Shown: positions 3,065 through 8,074 of the stretch, one piece after another | Position numbering within the stretch: the first letter of the stretch is position 1 | Layout: each line of letters opens with the position of its first letter | Assembly (NCBI GenBank): GCA_001771545.1 | Contig: MEUC01000035.1 | Coordinates: 1-37,627 of the forward strand | Direction of reading: 5' to 3' | Length of the DNA: 37,627 bases | Source: a candidate division WOR-1 bacterium RIFOXYB2_FULL_42_35 | GTDB taxonomy: Bacteria > Margulisbacteria > WOR-1 > O2-12-FULL-45-9 | Notes under the pieces: model-generated | What the model saw: only the letters and a program-made list of their open reading frames with translations | Told to the model about the DNA's origin: nothing | Databases searched by the model: none | Position numbers and translations under genes: made by a program

Positions 3065-3457
3065 TTATTGTAATGTCTTGACCCAGGAAAAGATCTCCTT
3101 GGCAATAACAAGACACCTTTCAGCTTGCTCTCTAGTTATTTTGTCTCCAGTAGGATACCTTAATCGGGGATATAAAAAATTAACATAAGAAATCTTATCA
3201 AAAAGGTCCGCGCAGTTTTTTGCTTCGGGCAACTGTTTAAAAAGTGAGTTTATGTCATGAATAAACTTAAAGGCTTGCGCACACTTCAACAACCGGAACT
3301 TGATTATTTTCTCAATTGCCTGATGGGCATGATAGGCTGAAATGTCATAATTGTCACTTTCCCGTAAAAGAATTTCTGCGGATTCCAGATCGTCAGCGGC
3401 TCTCTGTTCCCATTCCTTAAGGATGTCTGCTTTTTCCTTTTCAATCTCTGCGTTCAT
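3065..3457 (-). CDS. HEPN domain protein (partner of MNT)
   Basis: A 130-residue all-helical HEPN protein. Recognisable are 'WEQRAADDLESAEILLRE' at the N-terminus, 'HAHQAIEKIIKFRLL' in the second helix and 'YPRLRYPTGD' late in the domain, a block often conserved in HEPN proteins paired with minimal nucleotidyltransferases. HEPN/MNT pairs form type VII toxin-antitoxin systems in which the MNT modifies the HEPN toxin with AMP. A clear R-x4-6-H RNase motif is not obvious, so RNase activity is uncertain. The start overlaps the end of the MNT gene by 17 bp, as expected of a two-gene operon. Confidence 0.8.
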   Translation of the reverse strand: MNAEIEKEKADILKEWEQRAADDLESAEILLRESDNYDISAYHAHQAIEKIIKFRLLKCAQAFKFIHDINSLFKQLPEAKNCADLFDKISYVNFLYPRLRYPTGDKITREQAERCLVIAKEIFSWVKTLQ

Positions 3458-3755
3458 ACAAAACTTTTCCCTTTTTGTCTATTTCATACTGCACAGTACC
3501 CCAAATTTCTTTCCTTTTGTTAAATTCGTCTTTATTAAAAAGCAATAAATCGATCGGCTGGATGAAATCACCCAAAATTTTGCGTATTTTAATAAAATCT
3601 TCACTTTTATCCCTCATATTGTCATTGATTATGCATAAATCAATATCGCTATTAGGAGTGGTTCTGCCCCCCGCACGGGAACCAAATAACACCAGCCGAA
3701 GCGGATTAACATTTTTTGCTATTTTTTCAGTAATATTTTTAATATCTTCATCCAT
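3441..3755 (-). CDS. Minimal nucleotidyltransferase (MNT) antitoxin
   Basis: A 104-residue protein with the MNT signature LVLFGSRAGGRTTPNSDIDLCI (about 20-41), the GSx10DxD nucleotide-transfer motif, and a third acidic position in 'QPIDLLLF'. In MNT/HEPN type VII systems this enzyme neutralises the HEPN toxin by adenylylation. It is the first gene of the pair. Its -10 box is only about 11 bp from the ATG, so the mRNA may be nearly leaderless. Confidence 0.82.
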   Translation of the reverse strand: MDEDIKNITEKIAKNVNPLRLVLFGSRAGGRTTPNSDIDLCIINDNMRDKSEDFIKIRKILGDFIQPIDLLLFNKDEFNKRKEIWGTVQYEIDKKGKVLYERRD

Positions 3756-3794: not shown

Positions 3795-3858
3795 TGCAAA
3801 TTTGGCGCCCGCCCAACGGGCTTCAGTGGACAGATCAAGCTTCAAAAACATGAAACAC

Positions 3859-3906
3859 CACTCCTTCATCCGCCTTAACCAGTTTAAAACCCCCAACAGG
3901 ATTTAG
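3859..3906. repeat. Dispersed repeat C, copy 1
   Basis: Shares CACTCC and the core CCTTAACCAGTTTAA with copies at 4409-4459 and 5178-5235, all in the same orientation. The plus strand can be read as HSFIRLNQF and the minus strand as GFKLVKADEGV. Both frames are partly conserved between copies, so it could be a remnant of a coding end on either strand. It separates the MNT/HEPN pair from the small-peptide gene. Confidence 0.6.
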
Positions 3907-3934: not shown

Positions 3935-3989
3935 TTGACAAAATAATAAGATAAGATAAGATAGGATAGGATAGGATAGGATAGGATAA
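3935..3989 (+). promoter_or_regulatory. TTGACA box followed by GATAA/GATAG pentanucleotide microsatellite
   Basis: TTGACA (3935-3940) is followed at 3950-3989 by eight 5-bp units: GATAA twice, GATAG five times, GATAA once. A -10 element would have to lie inside the array (for example TAAGAT), about 50 bp before the ATG at 4019. Slippage in the array would change promoter spacing or leader length by 5 bp, so switching of the downstream peptide gene is possible. The array is seen; the switching is inferred. Confidence 0.5.
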
Positions 3990-4018
3990 GATGAAGTCAA
4001 AATAGAAGGAGTAAAAAT

Positions 4019-4288
4019 ATGGAAAAGCAAATAAAACGATTTGAATACAATTCTCCTAACTTTGTAAATCTAAGTTTTAGCAAATTTTCACATGGTGGTG
4101 GTTGTAATCCGGGCGGAGCCCCAAACGACTGCGGAGGAGGAGACACTCCCACAGATATCAACGATTGTAGCCGCGGGACGAGCGAAGCCACTAATCAGTG
4201 TTTCCCTGGCAACGTGGCTGGTTCAAATTGTGATGATGGTGGAGTCGCGGTAGGATCTTGTATCGCCGATGGAACAAGTGTCACCTAA
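4019..4288 (+). CDS. Small Cys/Gly-rich peptide, candidate RiPP precursor
   Basis: An 89-residue ORF with a good ribosome site (GAAGGAG at 4005-4011, 7 nt before ATG). The basic/aromatic N-terminus contains Y10-N-S-P13 followed by F-V-N-L, resembling the YxxPxL leader recognised by PqqD-like RRE domains in lasso and related RiPPs. Residues 26-28 are Gly-Gly-Gly, a possible leader/core junction. The rest (29-89) is rich in Gly, Asn, Asp, Thr and Ser, with six Cys at 29, 38, 50, 61, 71 and 81, spaced 9-12 residues. Most are followed by C-x-x-G (CNPG, CGGG, CSRG, CFPG, CDDG). I do not recognise a family. An ScmC/HPr-kinase-like gene and a peptidase gene lie 1.0-2.9 kb downstream; no maturase is adjacent. 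A small secreted or cell-surface protein is an alternative, but there is no signal peptide. Confidence 0.6.
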   Translation: MEKQIKRFEYNSPNFVNLSFSKFSHGGGCNPGGAPNDCGGGDTPTDINDCSRGTSEATNQCFPGNVAGSNCDDGGVAVGSCIADGTSVT

Positions 4289-4408
4289 TTAATCAAATTC
4301 GTATCCTTAATTTAATATCGAGATTAGTTTGGCAAAATTTGTTTTTATTAATTTTGGGGTTATTTTTTTTTGTTATTGCTTCGCTTGCACCTGTTTAGTC
4401 GCTTTAAT

Positions 4409-4459
4409 CACTCCACCAGCCTTAACCAGTTTAACCCCAACTTATGCGACGGGGTTTAG
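4409..4459. repeat. Dispersed repeat C, copy 2
   Basis: Closest to copy 3; they share CCAGTTTAACCCCAA-y-TTATGC-r-ACGGGGTTT. AACCCC and GGGGTT could pair around a 12-nt loop, but no T run follows, so it is not a convincing terminator. It lies in the 4289-4714 gap between the peptide gene and the second MNT. The rest of the gap holds the hairpins at 4529-4616 and a promoter, but no gene that I can support. Confidence 0.6.
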
Positions 4460-4528
4460 AATTCAATGATAGAGATCTTGCTCTTTTTTAAAAAATAAAG
4501 GCCGTCGAGTTTCTATCTTTAATTTTCT

Positions 4529-4616
4529 CACCAATGAACCCTACAGAGAAAATGTCGCCAAGCAAACCTTGGCAAAAAGTGCCTATTGGTGATAAGTGAA
4601 AGCCGAGTTTTCACTT
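4529..4616. other. Nested inverted repeats (possible structured RNA or small element)
   Basis: CACCAAT (4529-4535) pairs with ATTGGTG (4585-4591), enclosing a perfect 6-bp hairpin GCCAAG/CTTGGC (4557-4562, 4568-4573). Directly after comes AAGTGAAA/TTTCACTT (4594-4601, 4609-4616) with a GC-containing loop. No coding potential is evident. It could be the leader of the MNT transcript, an end of a vanished insertion, or chance in AT-rich DNA. Confidence 0.35.
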
Positions 4617-4632
4617 GACACCAGTAAAAAAA

Positions 4633-4661
4633 TTGCCTCAATACTTCTTTTCTAGTATAAT
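4633..4661 (+). promoter_or_regulatory. Promoter upstream of second MNT gene
   Basis: TTGCCT (4633-4638) and TATAAT (4656-4661) are spaced by 17 bp. The predicted start near 4668 gives a leader of about 47 nt to the ATG at 4715. Confidence 0.5.
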
Positions 4662-4714
4662 CAATTCCCAGCAGGTTATAGAAATTATGGTCAAGCCAAT
4701 AAGTGAGATCAGCA

Positions 4715-5047
4715 ATGATAGCAGATGAAAAAACCATTAAAAATTCCATTGAATTTATAAAAGACAAGATTTCACCGGAAAAAATATATCTATTTGGGTC
4801 TTATGCTAAAGGCAATCCCACTGCTGCCAGCGACCTGGACTTTTTGATCATAAAAACAACTACGTTACCAAAACACAAAAGAGCCTGGCCGCTATACTCT
4901 TTAGATAAAAGCAAAAAAATCGGTTTCCCTATTGGCATTGATTTTATTGTTTACACGCCGGAAGAATTTAATATACAAATAAATGAGCCAAATTCACTAG
5001 CTGGAGAAGTAGCTAGGACAGGCAAACTTTTATATGAAAGAAAATAA
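4715..5047 (+). CDS. Minimal nucleotidyltransferase (MNT) domain protein
   Basis: A 110-residue protein from the ATG at 4715 (MIADEKTIKNS); a GTG at 4703 is the other in-frame start. It carries the MNT motif 'KIYLFGSYAKGNPTAASDLDFLI' and the downstream acidic 'GIDFIV'. It resembles the MNT of type VII TA pairs but is distinct in sequence from the one at 3441-3755. Its stop region overlaps the ATG of a very short ORF resembling a truncated HEPN partner, so the pair is probably broken or minimal. No second active-site loss is seen. Confidence 0.75.
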   Translation: MIADEKTIKNSIEFIKDKISPEKIYLFGSYAKGNPTAASDLDFLIIKTTTLPKHKRAWPLYSLDKSKKIGFPIGIDFIVYTPEEFNIQINEPNSLAGEVARTGKLLYERK

Positions 5048-5159
5048 AAAACAAAGCAAAATCCTGAAATTAAAGGCTGAAGAAGACCTAAATTATGTCA
5101 ACCAAGCTGAACAGGCAACAAATTTTATTTTGGCTAAGGTTACCCAAGATCATAATTAA
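5034..5159 (+). pseudogene. Truncated HEPN-like remnant
   Basis: A 41-residue ORF overlapping the MNT gene by 14 bp in the arrangement normal for MNT-HEPN pairs. The only HEPN-like part is 'KLKAEEDLNYVNQAEQAT', similar to the first helix of HEPN proteins; the remaining helices are absent before the stop at 5157. About 20 bp further on repeat C copy 3 begins, so the 3' part may have been lost by recombination there. It may no longer be functional. Confidence 0.4.
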
Positions 5160-5177
5160 ATTCTTTTAATGATAACC

Positions 5178-5235
5178 CACTCCTCCCTCATCAGCCTCAA
5201 CCAGTTTAACCCCAATTTATGCAACGGGGTTTCTA
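5178..5235. repeat. Dispersed repeat C, copy 3
   Basis: Third copy of the repeat seen at 3859 and 4409, same orientation, lying between the MNT/HEPN remnant and the promoter of the ScmC-like operon. Each copy falls at a module boundary in this island. Confidence 0.6.
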
Positions 5236-5280
5236 ATACTATGTTTTGCCAAGAAGCCTTCGCCCGAGCCAAAGAATTCA

Positions 5281-5289
5281 TGCTATAAT
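5281..5289 (+). promoter_or_regulatory. Extended -10 promoter of the ScmC-like operon
   Basis: TGC followed by TATAAT (5284-5289) is an extended -10 element without a clear -35 box. The start is expected near 5296, only about 4 nt before the ATG at 5300, so the transcript would be almost leaderless. Confidence 0.55.
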
Positions 5290-5299
5290 TAAATTATTC

Positions 5300-6340
5300 A
5301 TGATCCCAAAAACTTCTACAAAACTTAAAGATGCCTACTGTTTGCGCCTAGCTAATGGCCAAGAATGGTCGCTAATCGCAACCAAGGGCCTAAACCCCTG
5401 GCTTACAGCTTTTGCTAAAATCCTTGAGCTGGAAAAATGCCAAGTAGATGACCAGCCAAAAATAATTTTCACCAAAGCACGCAAAAAGTTTACTGTACGG
5501 CCTAAACTTGACCTGCCGATTAAATATCCGGCTAAAGGCTGGCAAAGACAAAATATGGGCTCAATCCAGTTTTGGCAGCATGATAATTTAGAAGACATTA
5601 TCTGCGAAGTAAAACACTTAAAAAACGACACATTAAAGATAACCAACATGATGCAGGCTTTGCGTAGTATATACGATAAAATCGTTAAACAAGGCGGCTT
5701 CCCTTTTCACTGCGGTATGCTGGAAAAAGACGGACAAGCTGTGCTTATTTCTGCACCTGGCAGTACCGGCAAATCAACTTGCTGCCGCCGCGCACCCAAG
5801 CCCTGGACAGCTCATGCTGATGACGCAGCGGTTATTGTTAAACACAATGGCCAATATTTTGTCCACCCCTTCCCTACCTGGAGCGATTATTTAATTAGAA
5901 AGTCAAATAAAACCTGGAAAGTGGAAAAACATTTTCCACTTAAAGCCATTTTTTTTATTGAGCAAACTAAAGGTCAGGAAGAAGTAATCCCTATTTGGTC
6001 AGGTCAGGCCGTTATTTTAGTTAACCAGCAAATTACTCACACACATCGAGCCAGACACAGTAAACATAAAAAAGCTAAAGCTCTTGACACCACCAAGGCC
6101 ATGGAACATAAAAAACTTATTTTTGGCAATGCCTGCGAATTAGCCAAACATATCCCCTGCTATATTTTAAGGGTGCATATCACAGGCAAGTTTTGGCAGA
6201 AAATTGAAAAAGTTTTAGCCGGCAACCCAAAGCCCATGGAAAAACCAGTTAATGATAATTCTATTAAGCTTTATACACCCAAATTAGTGGCTAGTATAAA
6301 AAAAACAGCTTCAAGAAGAAGAACCCGACATGGAAAATAA
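5300..6340 (+). CDS. ScmC-like HPr-kinase-related protein
   Basis: A 346-residue protein from ATG 5300; a TTG at 5246 would place the promoter inside the gene. The C-terminal two thirds match the HPr kinase-like fold of the SynChlorMet cassette protein ScmC. Seen are 'FPFHCGMLEKDGQAVLISAPGS' leading into Walker A GSTGKSTCCRR (about 154-164), then 'HADDAAVIV', 'HPFPTWSDYLIRKSNKTW' and 'FFIEQ'. In SynChlorMet cassettes ScmC accompanies a PqqD-like protein and radical SAM enzymes. In paeninodin-type lasso clusters a related kinase phosphorylates the peptide. Here neither PqqD nor radical SAM genes are nearby. It is the first gene of a three-gene operon whose members overlap by 11 and 4 bp. Substrate is unknown; the Cys-rich peptide at 4019 is a candidate by proximity only. 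Confidence 0.75.
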   Translation: MIPKTSTKLKDAYCLRLANGQEWSLIATKGLNPWLTAFAKILELEKCQVDDQPKIIFTKARKKFTVRPKLDLPIKYPAKGWQRQNMGSIQFWQHDNLEDIICEVKHLKNDTLKITNMMQALRSIYDKIVKQGGFPFHCGMLEKDGQAVLISAPGSTGKSTCCRRAPKPWTAHADDAAVIVKHNGQYFVHPFPTWSDYLIRKSNKTWKVEKHFPLKAIFFIEQTKGQEEVIPIWSGQAVILVNQQITHTHRARHSKHKKAKALDTTKAMEHKKLIFGNACELAKHIPCYILRVHITGKFWQKIEKVLAGNPKPMEKPVNDNSIKLYTPKLVASIKKTASRRRTRHGK

Positions 6341-6959
6341 GCCTGCAGAATATTCTTTGCCTAATTTGCTTAAAAAAGAAAACTGCTATGTTTATATCGG
6401 TCCAAGCATGAACCCAACTTTAAAAGCCCCTGATATTTTGGAAGTAACACCTTATAAAGGCCAGCCAATTAAAGTTGGCGACGTTTTAACCTTTCCCCAT
6501 CCTGACGGCAGCAAGAATATTACTCATCGGGCAATTTACGTTGGCCCTGACGGCGTAAGAACTCGTGGAGACAACAACGGCAACACTGATCCCTGGTTAC
6601 TTAAACCGGAAAACATCACCGGCAGAGTTGATTGGGCTTTACGCGGCAAATGGAAACGATTTATCCATGGGGGCTTAGAAGGCCGGCTCTTTGAGGCCTA
6701 TGTTAGATCAAAACGTTTTATACGCAGGAAAATAACGTTGCTCGTTAGGCCAATTTATCGTTTCTTTGTTAAGAAACCATTATTAAAACAATGGTTTTCC
6801 GCTAAATTGAAGCCTAAGATTATTAATTATCAGAGGAAAGATTATTTTGAGCGCCAATTAGTCATTGGCAAATATGTAATTGGCCGGCGTTTCCCTGGCC
6901 GCCGCTGGAGAATTAACCCGCTTTTCAAACTATTGATTGATACAGGACAACTGAATTGA
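6330..6959 (+). CDS. S26-family (SipW-like) signal-peptidase-related protein
   Basis: A 209-residue protein. 'YIGPSMNPTL' (about 23-32) holds the nucleophile Ser. 'GDVLTF', 'ITHRAIYV' and 'TRGDNNGNTD' correspond to the His and Asp boxes of ER/archaeal (SipW-type) signal peptidases, which use His in place of the bacterial Lys. Residues about 115-209 are very basic (many KRF/RRK strings), with no obvious long N-terminal membrane anchor, unusual for a housekeeping leader peptidase. The start overlaps the ScmC-like gene by 11 bp. S24/S26-type peptidases are found with HPr-kinase-like and NTP_transf_5 proteins in peptide-modification neighbourhoods. It may cleave a specific precursor; this is inferred. 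Confidence 0.7.
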   Translation: MENKPAEYSLPNLLKKENCYVYIGPSMNPTLKAPDILEVTPYKGQPIKVGDVLTFPHPDGSKNITHRAIYVGPDGVRTRGDNNGNTDPWLLKPENITGRVDWALRGKWKRFIHGGLEGRLFEAYVRSKRFIRRKITLLVRPIYRFFVKKPLLKQWFSAKLKPKIINYQRKDYFERQLVIGKYVIGRRFPGRRWRINPLFKLLIDTGQLN

Positions 6960-8074
6960 TTGAAAAACTTCGTCAGAGACAAGAAGAGATTCTTTTACCC
7001 GAAAGCAACCCTCTATTACAAGCCAAAGAAAAAATTTTTGTTTATTTCCGCTCTCTTCTAAGGGACGAAGCAATTGTAGCCAAAGATTTTACTGCGCAAG
7101 ATTGGCAAGAATATATTTCTCTGGCCAGTAGTCAAGGATTGCTGCAGCTAACATATTGGAAAACCAAACACCTGCCAGAACCGTTTCACCCCCCCAAAGA
7201 AATCTTTGAGCAGTTGCGACAGGCCTTTATGGCCAACTACGTTAAATTCTTACAGACAGAACAACAATTAAAAGTTTTGTGTGGGGCATTTAATACGGCT
7301 GGAATTAAAGTTTTACTTTTAAAAGGACCTGCTTTTGCCCAATCAATTTACCCTCACCCAGCCCTGCGTTCTTTTAGTGATATCGATATTTTAGTGAACC
7401 CGGAAAATGTCACGAAAACCAAAGCGGTTTTACGACAGCTTGATTATCAAAGTCACACCCAAGAATTTGAACACTTTCAAGGATTGAGAAATGAAGAATC
7501 GTTTTCCAGCAAAGGGAAAACTCCCGCTTTAAAATCAATTGACTTACACTGGGACATACATTGTTTCTTCGGCATTTTAAAACATGTATCAGTCAAAGAT
7601 TACTTTGACAACAGCATTTCAATAACAACACCCCAACTTGCCTTTCTAACCCTTAATCCAGTCGATGCCTTGATTCACGCAGCAGTACATATGCGCATGA
7701 CCCATCATGGTTCTTTTCGGCTTAGTTGGGTGGCAGATATGGCTATGTTGATTAAACAACTTATAAGCCTTGATGATTGGCAACGGCTTAAAAGAAAGAG
7801 TCAAGACATTGGGGCCACGTTAGTTGTGGGAGAATCATTGAAGCTGGCAGAGTTTTTCTTTGGAACCGGATTGCCGGCAGACTTTATTAAGGCTGGTGGT
7901 TGGCCAAAAGCAACTAAGCGAGAATCAATTGATCTCAATCACGCTATCAGAAGGAATCAAAACAATCTCAGTTGGCTCTTAGCCCGCTGGCCAAGAAGAC
8001 TCCATCCGCTGAAACAAATTATTCTTTTTGGCAACTTATTGGCTGAGCGCTTAGGCCCCAAAATCCGCCGCTAA
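6956..8074 (+). CDS. NTP_transf_5 family nucleotidyltransferase
   Basis: A 372-residue protein with a TTG start overlapping the previous stop by 4 bp (ATTGA). The core block 'VLLLKGPAFAQSIYPHPALRSFSDIDILV' (about 119-147) is the signature of uncharacterised nucleotidyltransferase family PF14907, with the metal-binding D-x-D. Later conserved pieces are 'DLHWDIH' and 'LIHAAVHMRMTHHGSFRLSWVADMAML'. Members occur in lasso-peptide clusters with HPr-kinase-like enzymes, and beside PqqD-like proteins. Third gene of the ScmC-like/peptidase operon; role inferred to be peptide or cofactor modification. Confidence 0.75.
   Translation: MIEKLRQRQEEILLPESNPLLQAKEKIFVYFRSLLRDEAIVAKDFTAQDWQEYISLASSQGLLQLTYWKTKHLPEPFHPPKEIFEQLRQAFMANYVKFLQTEQQLKVLCGAFNTAGIKVLLLKGPAFAQSIYPHPALRSFSDIDILVNPENVTKTKAVLRQLDYQSHTQEFEHFQGLRNEESFSSKGKTPALKSIDLHWDIHCFFGILKHVSVKDYFDNSISITTPQLAFLTLNPVDALIHAAVHMRMTHHGSFRLSWVADMAMLIKQLISLDDWQRLKRKSQDIGATLVVGESLKLAEFFFGTGLPADFIKAGGWPKATKRESIDLNHAIRRNQNNLSWLLARWPRRLHPLKQIILFGNLLAERLGPKIRR

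Follow-up and report, generated by a model that had tools for sequence, protein, structure and literature searches.

The SynChlorMet (Scm) cassette is known by name and defined by NCBIfam models (TIGR04248–TIGR04252); a literature search on the SynChlorMet and Scm names returned no paper using the name and no reported product. A precedent for the tailoring of a ribosomally synthesized and post-translationally modified peptide (RiPP) by a kinase and a nucleotidyltransferase is provided by PsmK and PsmN of pseudomycoidin (PMC8498205, PMC9266682). Here we describe a locus from the candidate division WOR-1 bacterium RIFOXYB2_FULL_42_35 (assembly GCA_001771545.1; genome G000 in our comparisons). 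The stretch analysed, all 37,627 nucleotides of contig MEUC01000035.1 (C35), is referred to as the window. With a probability of about 0.87, the locus is the downstream part of an Scm RiPP cassette, in which a precursor of the ScmA superfamily is accompanied by ScmC, an S26 peptidase and an NTP_transf_5 enzyme, while ScmD, ScmE and ScmF are encoded directly before it on contig C12, beyond one insertion sequence (IS) copy and inserted toxin–antitoxin genes. New here are the interrupted architecture, the S26 and NTP_transf_5 partners, the junction motif and the dispersed precursor sets.

Cassette genes in the window and on contig C12

The window contains the following elements of the cassette:

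4004–4011, + strand: ribosome-binding site of the peptide gene (AGAAGGAG), 7 nt before the ATG
4019–4288, + strand: ScmA-like precursor peptide, 89 residues; leader M1–G26 with an S24-H25-G26 junction, then a six-cysteine core
5300–6340, + strand (ATG at 5300): ScmC, predicted PEPCK/HPr-kinase-like P-loop kinase; TIGR04249 match, conserved core residues
6330–6959, + strand: S26 signal-peptidase-like protease, proposed leader peptidase; invariant S26, H66, D81 and D87
6956–8074, + strand: NTP_transf_5 nucleotidyltransferase-fold enzyme (PF14907)

The open reading frame (ORF) at 4019–4288 encodes MEKQIKRFEYNSPNFVNLSFSKFSHGGGCNPGGAPNDCGGGDTPTDINDCSRGTSEATNQCFPGNVAGSNCDDGGVAVGSCIADGTSVT. Its leader carries Y10-x-x-P13, the GGG run occupies residues 26–28, and the cysteines lie at positions 29, 38, 50, 61, 71 and 81 (spacings 9, 12, 11, 10 and 10), five of them in C-x-x-G and the last in C-x-x-x-G. 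The peptide had no Pfam match. Tandem repeats of the GATAA/GATAG type were present directly upstream of its gene (3946–3993). Across the Saganbacteria peptide set, the leader followed the consensus Y-x-x-P-x-L-I-x-[LF], the first cysteine stood approximately 18 residues past the tyrosine, and glycine directly preceded it in 51 of 58 peptides. At this junction, Ala, Ser or Thr occupied position −3 in 34/51 peptides compared with 7/51 at position −2 (p = 6.5e-8); in peptides from other phyla the corresponding values were 22/40 and 4/40. Among 332 core cysteines, 260 were in C-x-x-G and 64 in C-x-x-x-G, often with alanine as the third residue past the glycine.

ScmC scored 272 bits with the SynChlorMet equivalog model TIGR04249 (cut-off 125) and thereby belongs to this family. 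Its P-loop (APGSTGKST, residues 152–160), H137 and the DD pair at 174–175 were identified, and the P-loop residues, His137 and Asp174–175 were invariant. It fell outside the HPr-kinase sequence family, with no Pfam HPr-kinase match and 18.5 versus 200 bits for HprK_rel_A. Solved structures of PEPCK (4e-6) and HprK (8e-5) were the top relatives, with a probability of 1.00, when the structure model (predicted local distance difference test score 88.3; predicted template modelling score 0.87) was searched with Foldseek. The modelled fold is of the PEPCK/HprK kinase type, with the P-loop and DD pair in place, and kinase activity is predicted. The S26 protein reached signal-peptidase models below the cut-off only (TIGR02228, 48.3 versus 51.85 bits) and showed no transmembrane-like stretch; Gly24, Ser26, Met27, Gly50, Asp51, His66, Arg67, Gly80, Asp81 and Asp87 were identical in 40 of 40 aligned cassette homologues. 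The third protein matched PF14907 with 164.7 bits (cut-off 31.2). The genes overlap by 11 bp (ScmC/S26) and 4 bp (S26/NTP_transf_5). An initial annotation of the window had described the peptide with its YxxP leader, GGG junction and six cysteines, mostly in C-x-x-G, the three overlapping genes, an S26 peptidase with Ser/His/Asp motifs and ScmC as an HPr-kinase-like protein of SynChlorMet cassettes; the ORF, ribosome-binding site, residue positions, model scores and structure model bear all of this out.

A PqqD search of the genome returned two loci; downstream of the one at C12:57.5 kb come two radical SAM genes. The PqqD-type RiPP recognition element (RRE) protein is ScmD, with 125.2 bits on TIGR04248 (cut-off 100), and the two radical SAM/SPASM proteins are ScmE (564.7 bits) and ScmF (578 bits), each with an NCBIfam cut-off of 400. 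Both contain C-x3-C-x2-C and C-terminal cysteine sets. Contig C12 terminates shortly past the ScmF stop codon, within a repeat that recurs at contig ends: one terminus (TGTCAACCCAAGATAGAAATGTTACATT...) is found on four ends and the inverted other terminus (TGTAGCACCAAAGTAGTAATGTTACA...) on three, as expected for an IS collapsed in assembly. The start of the window belongs to the same set of ends, and two traces of ScmF follow it:

1–101, no strand assigned: terminal part of the IS at the contig start, with a 15-bp target-site duplication (AAAGGTTTAAGCCGC) at 87–101
1564–1655, + strand: ScmF 3' end in degenerate form, 92% identical across 92 bp (E = 2.8e-33), reading ...PYWYCAKADEMGKFPKSRLVPHQELQKV to the stop
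2906–2978, + strand: ScmF 3' end in a second degenerate form, 86% identical across 73 bp (84.2 bits), after an ATPase gene

A matching IS end and the same duplication, AAAGGTTTAAGCCGC, were present at the end of C12, directly after the ScmF stop codon. The flanks of the contigs with IS ends (C12, C23, C4, C20, C33, C8 and C35) were compared in 12 end pairings. Long matches, each unique, were obtained for C12–C35 (15–18 bp), C23–C8 (16 bp) and C4–C33 (16 bp); read as target-site duplications, they suggest that these contigs are joined in pairs, and the uniqueness of the C23–C8 and C4–C33 matches validates the pairing method. The ScmF 3'-end copies scored 135 and 84.2 bits, compared with 28.3 bits for the best of 20 shuffles, and the copy at 1564–1655 marks the original position downstream of ScmF. 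Judged from the contig ends, C12 would thus lie directly upstream of C35 across one IS copy, in a single neighbourhood. The resulting order, ScmD–ScmE–ScmF–peptide–ScmC–S26–NTP_transf_5 with all genes on one strand, is also the usual arrangement in other phyla. A cassette split over two contigs had also been considered and was dropped when the IS ends and target duplications pointed to an assembly break.

The initial annotation had seen neither PqqD nor radical SAM genes, which holds for the window and fails for the genome, and had called the system an orphan without a classic maturase, a description overturned by ScmD, ScmE and ScmF upstream. The orphan look is due to the contig boundary and the inserted modules. 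A system lacking a radical SAM maturase and limited to phosphorylation or nucleotidylation of the peptide would agree with the window, where no radical SAM or PqqD gene lies near the peptide, and with three loci of a relative (G029 C11, C28 and C46) that have the peptide and ScmC without ScmE or ScmF nearby. In 57 genomes, however, ScmC never exceeded its cut-off without ScmE doing so, and this genome has ScmD, ScmE and ScmF placed just upstream, making such a system very improbable.

On contig C16 of the same genome (locus L024, 4780–15084), a second PqqD/S26/radical SAM locus was found together with two paralogous small peptides (leader ...IVLSRGSRQEAVLSGCK), which had no Pfam or NCBIfam match. 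With a PqqD, an S26 peptidase and several radical SAM genes of its own, C16 could in principle also have the window peptide as a substrate. We consider this hardly likely, because a different precursor pair (leader ...VLSRGSRQEAVLSGCK) is already encoded on C16, whose PqqD scored 33.5 on the ScmD model against a cut-off of 100.

Distribution of the peptide and the Scm genes

A single-sequence ScmC query over the genome contigs gave no match, and an ScmC alignment was needed to find the loci. Among 57 genomes of the phylum (Ca. Saganbacteria/Margulisbacteria), ScmC and ScmE exceeded their cut-offs in the same six; if the two were independent, identical sets of six would arise by chance with a probability of 1 in 3.6e7. 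When GTDB genomes were scanned with the ScmC alignment, 79 loci were obtained, spread over Saganbacteria, Deltaproteobacteria, Chlorobi, Aminicenantes, Omnitrophota, Methanomicrobiales and others. Peptides combining YxxP with CxxG repeats were present at 35 of these 79 loci (37 raw, two judged spurious) but at only one of 79 Markov-shuffled loci, and peptides of this kind adjoin ScmC in Deltaproteobacteria, Chlorobi, Aminicenantes and methanogens. The proposal that the window holds a RiPP-like system, with the peptide belonging to ScmC, S26 and NTP_transf_5, is strengthened by this recurrence; a lack of co-occurrence in relatives, which the initial annotation had named as the result that would speak against it, was not observed.

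Around 32 ScmC loci outside Saganbacteria with at least 4 kb of flank on both sides, home-made profiles seeded from Saganbacteria and used with lenient thresholds detected ScmD at 27, ScmF at 24, ScmE at 23, an ATP-binding cassette (ABC) exporter at 23, S26 at 22, NTP_transf_5 at 22 and the peptide at 17. Seven of 15 peptides from other phyla matched the NCBIfam ScmA model TIGR04252 (best E = 2.7e-19), and a profile–profile comparison matched the Saganbacteria peptides to those of other phyla (98.6%, E = 1.2e-15). A similar CxxG-repeat peptide was also seen beside a divergent ScmE-like cassette (226 versus 400 bits; L120, G030 C95, 2553–2744).

As a query in its own genome, the window peptide retrieved only itself; a profile of 19 Saganbacteria members recovered a second precursor at C22:77633–77941. 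Over the 57 genomes, this profile gave matches with E ≤ 0.01 in exactly the six genomes with ScmC and ScmE, five of which had contributed to the profile, a bias from which G006 is free; one extra match (G050, E = 0.097) fell in a 333-aa frame. These results bear on the view that the peptide is a small Cys/Gly-rich metal-binding or surface protein lying near ScmC by chance. The missing Pfam match would fit such a protein, as would the 1 kb and the foreign module that separate it from ScmC. Its relatives, however, are confined at E ≤ 0.01 to Scm-positive genomes and directly adjoin ScmC in many phyla, its leader is of the RRE type, and its profile matches ScmA-matching peptides, so a chance neighbour is highly improbable.

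Combining the profile with a regular expression, we counted 27 precursors in G029, 17 in G002, four in G019, three in G005, two in G000 and one in G006, with one ScmE over the cut-off in each of these genomes. Many unlinked precursors per maturase were thus counted in G029 and G002, by two methods. Most precursors of these two genomes had no Scm gene within the fetched flanks, usually about 1.5 kb. Ribosome-binding-site-like sequences preceded 29 of 58 Saganbacteria peptides compared with 3 of 58 internal controls, and the ratio of nonsynonymous to synonymous substitution rates was 0.36 and 0.32 for two tandem precursor pairs; on both grounds the dispersed precursors were read as genes. In three Saganbacteria genomes, a group-1/family-4 glycosyltransferase gene lies near a precursor and ScmC (L028 9600–10712, L031 2121–3332, L032 2043–3260), suggesting sugar tailoring of some precursors. 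We lean towards the interpretation that the Saganbacteria cassette serves, in trans, a library of CxxG-repeat peptides encoded throughout the genome (about 27 and 17 per single ScmE). In this view it would be the radical SAM equivalent of the prochlorosin system, and individual ScmC kinases and glycosyltransferases would be dedicated to particular precursors. This interpretation draws more on the relatives than on G000, with its two precursors.

Inserted modules and repeats in the window

The window also carries inserted modules and direct repeats:

163–1544, + strand: AbiEi-like/AbiEii type IV toxin–antitoxin pair, inserted module outside the peptide system
1697–2863: inserted ATPase gene, bracketed by the two ScmF 3'-end copies
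4703–5160, + strand: MNT-type nucleotidyltransferase antitoxin (4703–5047) and truncated partner frame, inserted module between the peptide and ScmC
4414–4468, + strand: direct repeat of 55 nt, left of the MNT/HEPN remnant, with a partial copy at 3856–3887
5189–5243, + strand: direct repeat right of the MNT/HEPN remnant, 85% identical to 4414–4468

The AbiE pair sits between the IS and the first ScmF 3'-end copy; AbiEii scored 65 bits (cut-off 22.5) and AbiEi_4 just 11.9, under its cut-off of 25. The ScmF 3' end seems to have been the insertion site of both this pair and the ATPase gene, a copy of the gene end being left each time, which we liken to integrative elements at the 3' ends of genes. 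The HEPN nature of the truncated partner frame is assigned from its position. The imperfect direct repeats (3856–3887, 4414–4468 and 5189–5243) bracket the peptide and the MNT/HEPN remnant. Integron-like recombination sites were considered for them; there are three copies only, all local, and no convincing copy was found elsewhere in the genome. Both precursor genes of G000 adjoin MNT/HEPN pairs (window 3065–3755 and 4703–5160; L197 2377–3256); a link between the two was dropped, as the peptide neighbourhoods retrieved from the other five genomes contained no such pair. The initial annotation had held that the MNT/HEPN remnant weakens the tie between the peptide and ScmC. It is one of several inserted modules, bracketed by the 55-bp direct repeats, and the objection loses its force.

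The insertions could also mean that a former SynChlorMet cassette has been uncoupled, with the window precursor no longer undergoing maturation. ScmF and the peptide are separated by at least 4 kb of foreign modules and an IS, and the peptide and ScmC by the MNT/HEPN module. Decay of this kind is nevertheless unlikely: ScmC, ScmD, ScmE and ScmF are intact and full-length compared with their models, the S26 and NTP_transf_5 frames are open with their motifs kept, and the peptide retains its ribosome-binding site, leader and junction together with all six repeats. In two relatives, moreover, precursors are normally dispersed, so linkage in an operon is not needed.

Several observations weigh against an Scm cassette at this locus. 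The IS and toxin–antitoxin insertions may have broken transcription of the unit. The IS itself is unassembled, so the C12–C35 join is deduced from contig ends. The whole-model overlap of ScmC with PEPCK and HprK is loose (template modelling score 0.2–0.48). About half of the ScmC loci had no peptide by regular expression, and the peptide profile missed the G019 C7 peptide and the G030 peptide beside the divergent Scm-like cassette. The window peptide had no match to TIGR04252 at E ≤ 1, placing it outside the ScmA model, and its Saganbacteria relatives remained below the cut-off (best 28.2 versus 35 bits); by itself it lacks an ScmA match and is therefore named ScmA-like, not ScmA.

Proposed pathway and comparison with known systems

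Computation supports the family placement of ScmC, ScmD, ScmE and ScmF, their linkage and co-occurrence, the conservation of leader, junction and S26 active-site residues, and the kinase-like fold; the enzymatic steps and the product we infer as follows. ScmD would bind and present the YxxPxLIxL leader. ScmE and ScmF would modify the repeats C-x-x-G(-x-x-A), most plausibly by introducing one crosslink in each; one ScmE/ScmF modification per repeat would be the natural reading of the sequence. The S26 protein may then cleave behind the [AST]-x-G motif in front of the first cysteine, S-H-G in the window peptide. Signal peptidase I requires small residues at −3 and −1. S26 is proposed as the leader peptidase because of this −3/−1 junction, because the cassette contains a peptidase of that family and because its exporter has no peptidase-domain match: judged from model positions, the ABC exporter aligns to peptidase-containing exporters outside the peptidase domain only. 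ScmC would phosphorylate a hydroxyl residue, NTP_transf_5 may add a nucleotide or sugar to the resulting phosphate, and the ABC exporter without a peptidase domain would export the product. An exporter homologue is present in G000 at C12:21139, with 62% identity to the exporter of the G002 operon.

The SynChlorMet cassette is now tied to CxxG-repeat precursors that form a large family spanning bacteria and archaea, and the signal-peptidase-like junction motif names S26 as its probable leader peptidase. The cassette offers testable enzyme–substrate pairs with natural substrate diversity, useful in radical SAM enzymology and peptide engineering. The locus also illustrates that an ordinary cassette can look like an orphan when a contig ends at an insertion sequence.

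With the cassette defined by TIGR04248–TIGR04252, the locus shares ScmC, ScmD, ScmE and ScmF, which pass the curated equivalog cut-offs, and a peptide with the architecture of ScmA-matching peptides. It differs in that the window peptide does not reach the ScmA cut-off, the IS and toxin–antitoxin modules interrupt the unit, and one further precursor is unlinked, with large dispersed precursor sets in relatives. Phosphorylated and glycosylated lasso peptides (paeninodin, pseudomycoidin) likewise have a YxxP-type leader, a PqqD-type RRE, an HPr-kinase-like enzyme and a nucleotidyltransferase, and by analogy ScmC and NTP_transf_5 plausibly fill the same two roles as PsmK and PsmN. In contrast to them, the core here consists of Cys/Gly repeats and is no lasso core, two radical SAM enzymes are present, S26 replaces the lasso leader protease, and a C-terminal serine is not conserved; no lasso cyclase or B2 leader peptidase was seen near the peptide, the genome not having been searched for them specifically.

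The radical SAM sactipeptides and ranthipeptides (e.g. ruminococcin C) resemble the locus in their Cys-rich cores and SPASM radical SAM enzymes; the C-x-x-G-x-x-A repeats set it apart, as do ScmE and ScmF, which are families of their own. With the prochlorosins (ProcM/SyncM), the relatives G029 and G002 have in common a single maturase set alongside many unlinked precursors whose leader is shared and whose cores vary, whereas the enzymes here are radical SAM/SPASM proteins instead of a LanM synthetase and the leader is unrelated.

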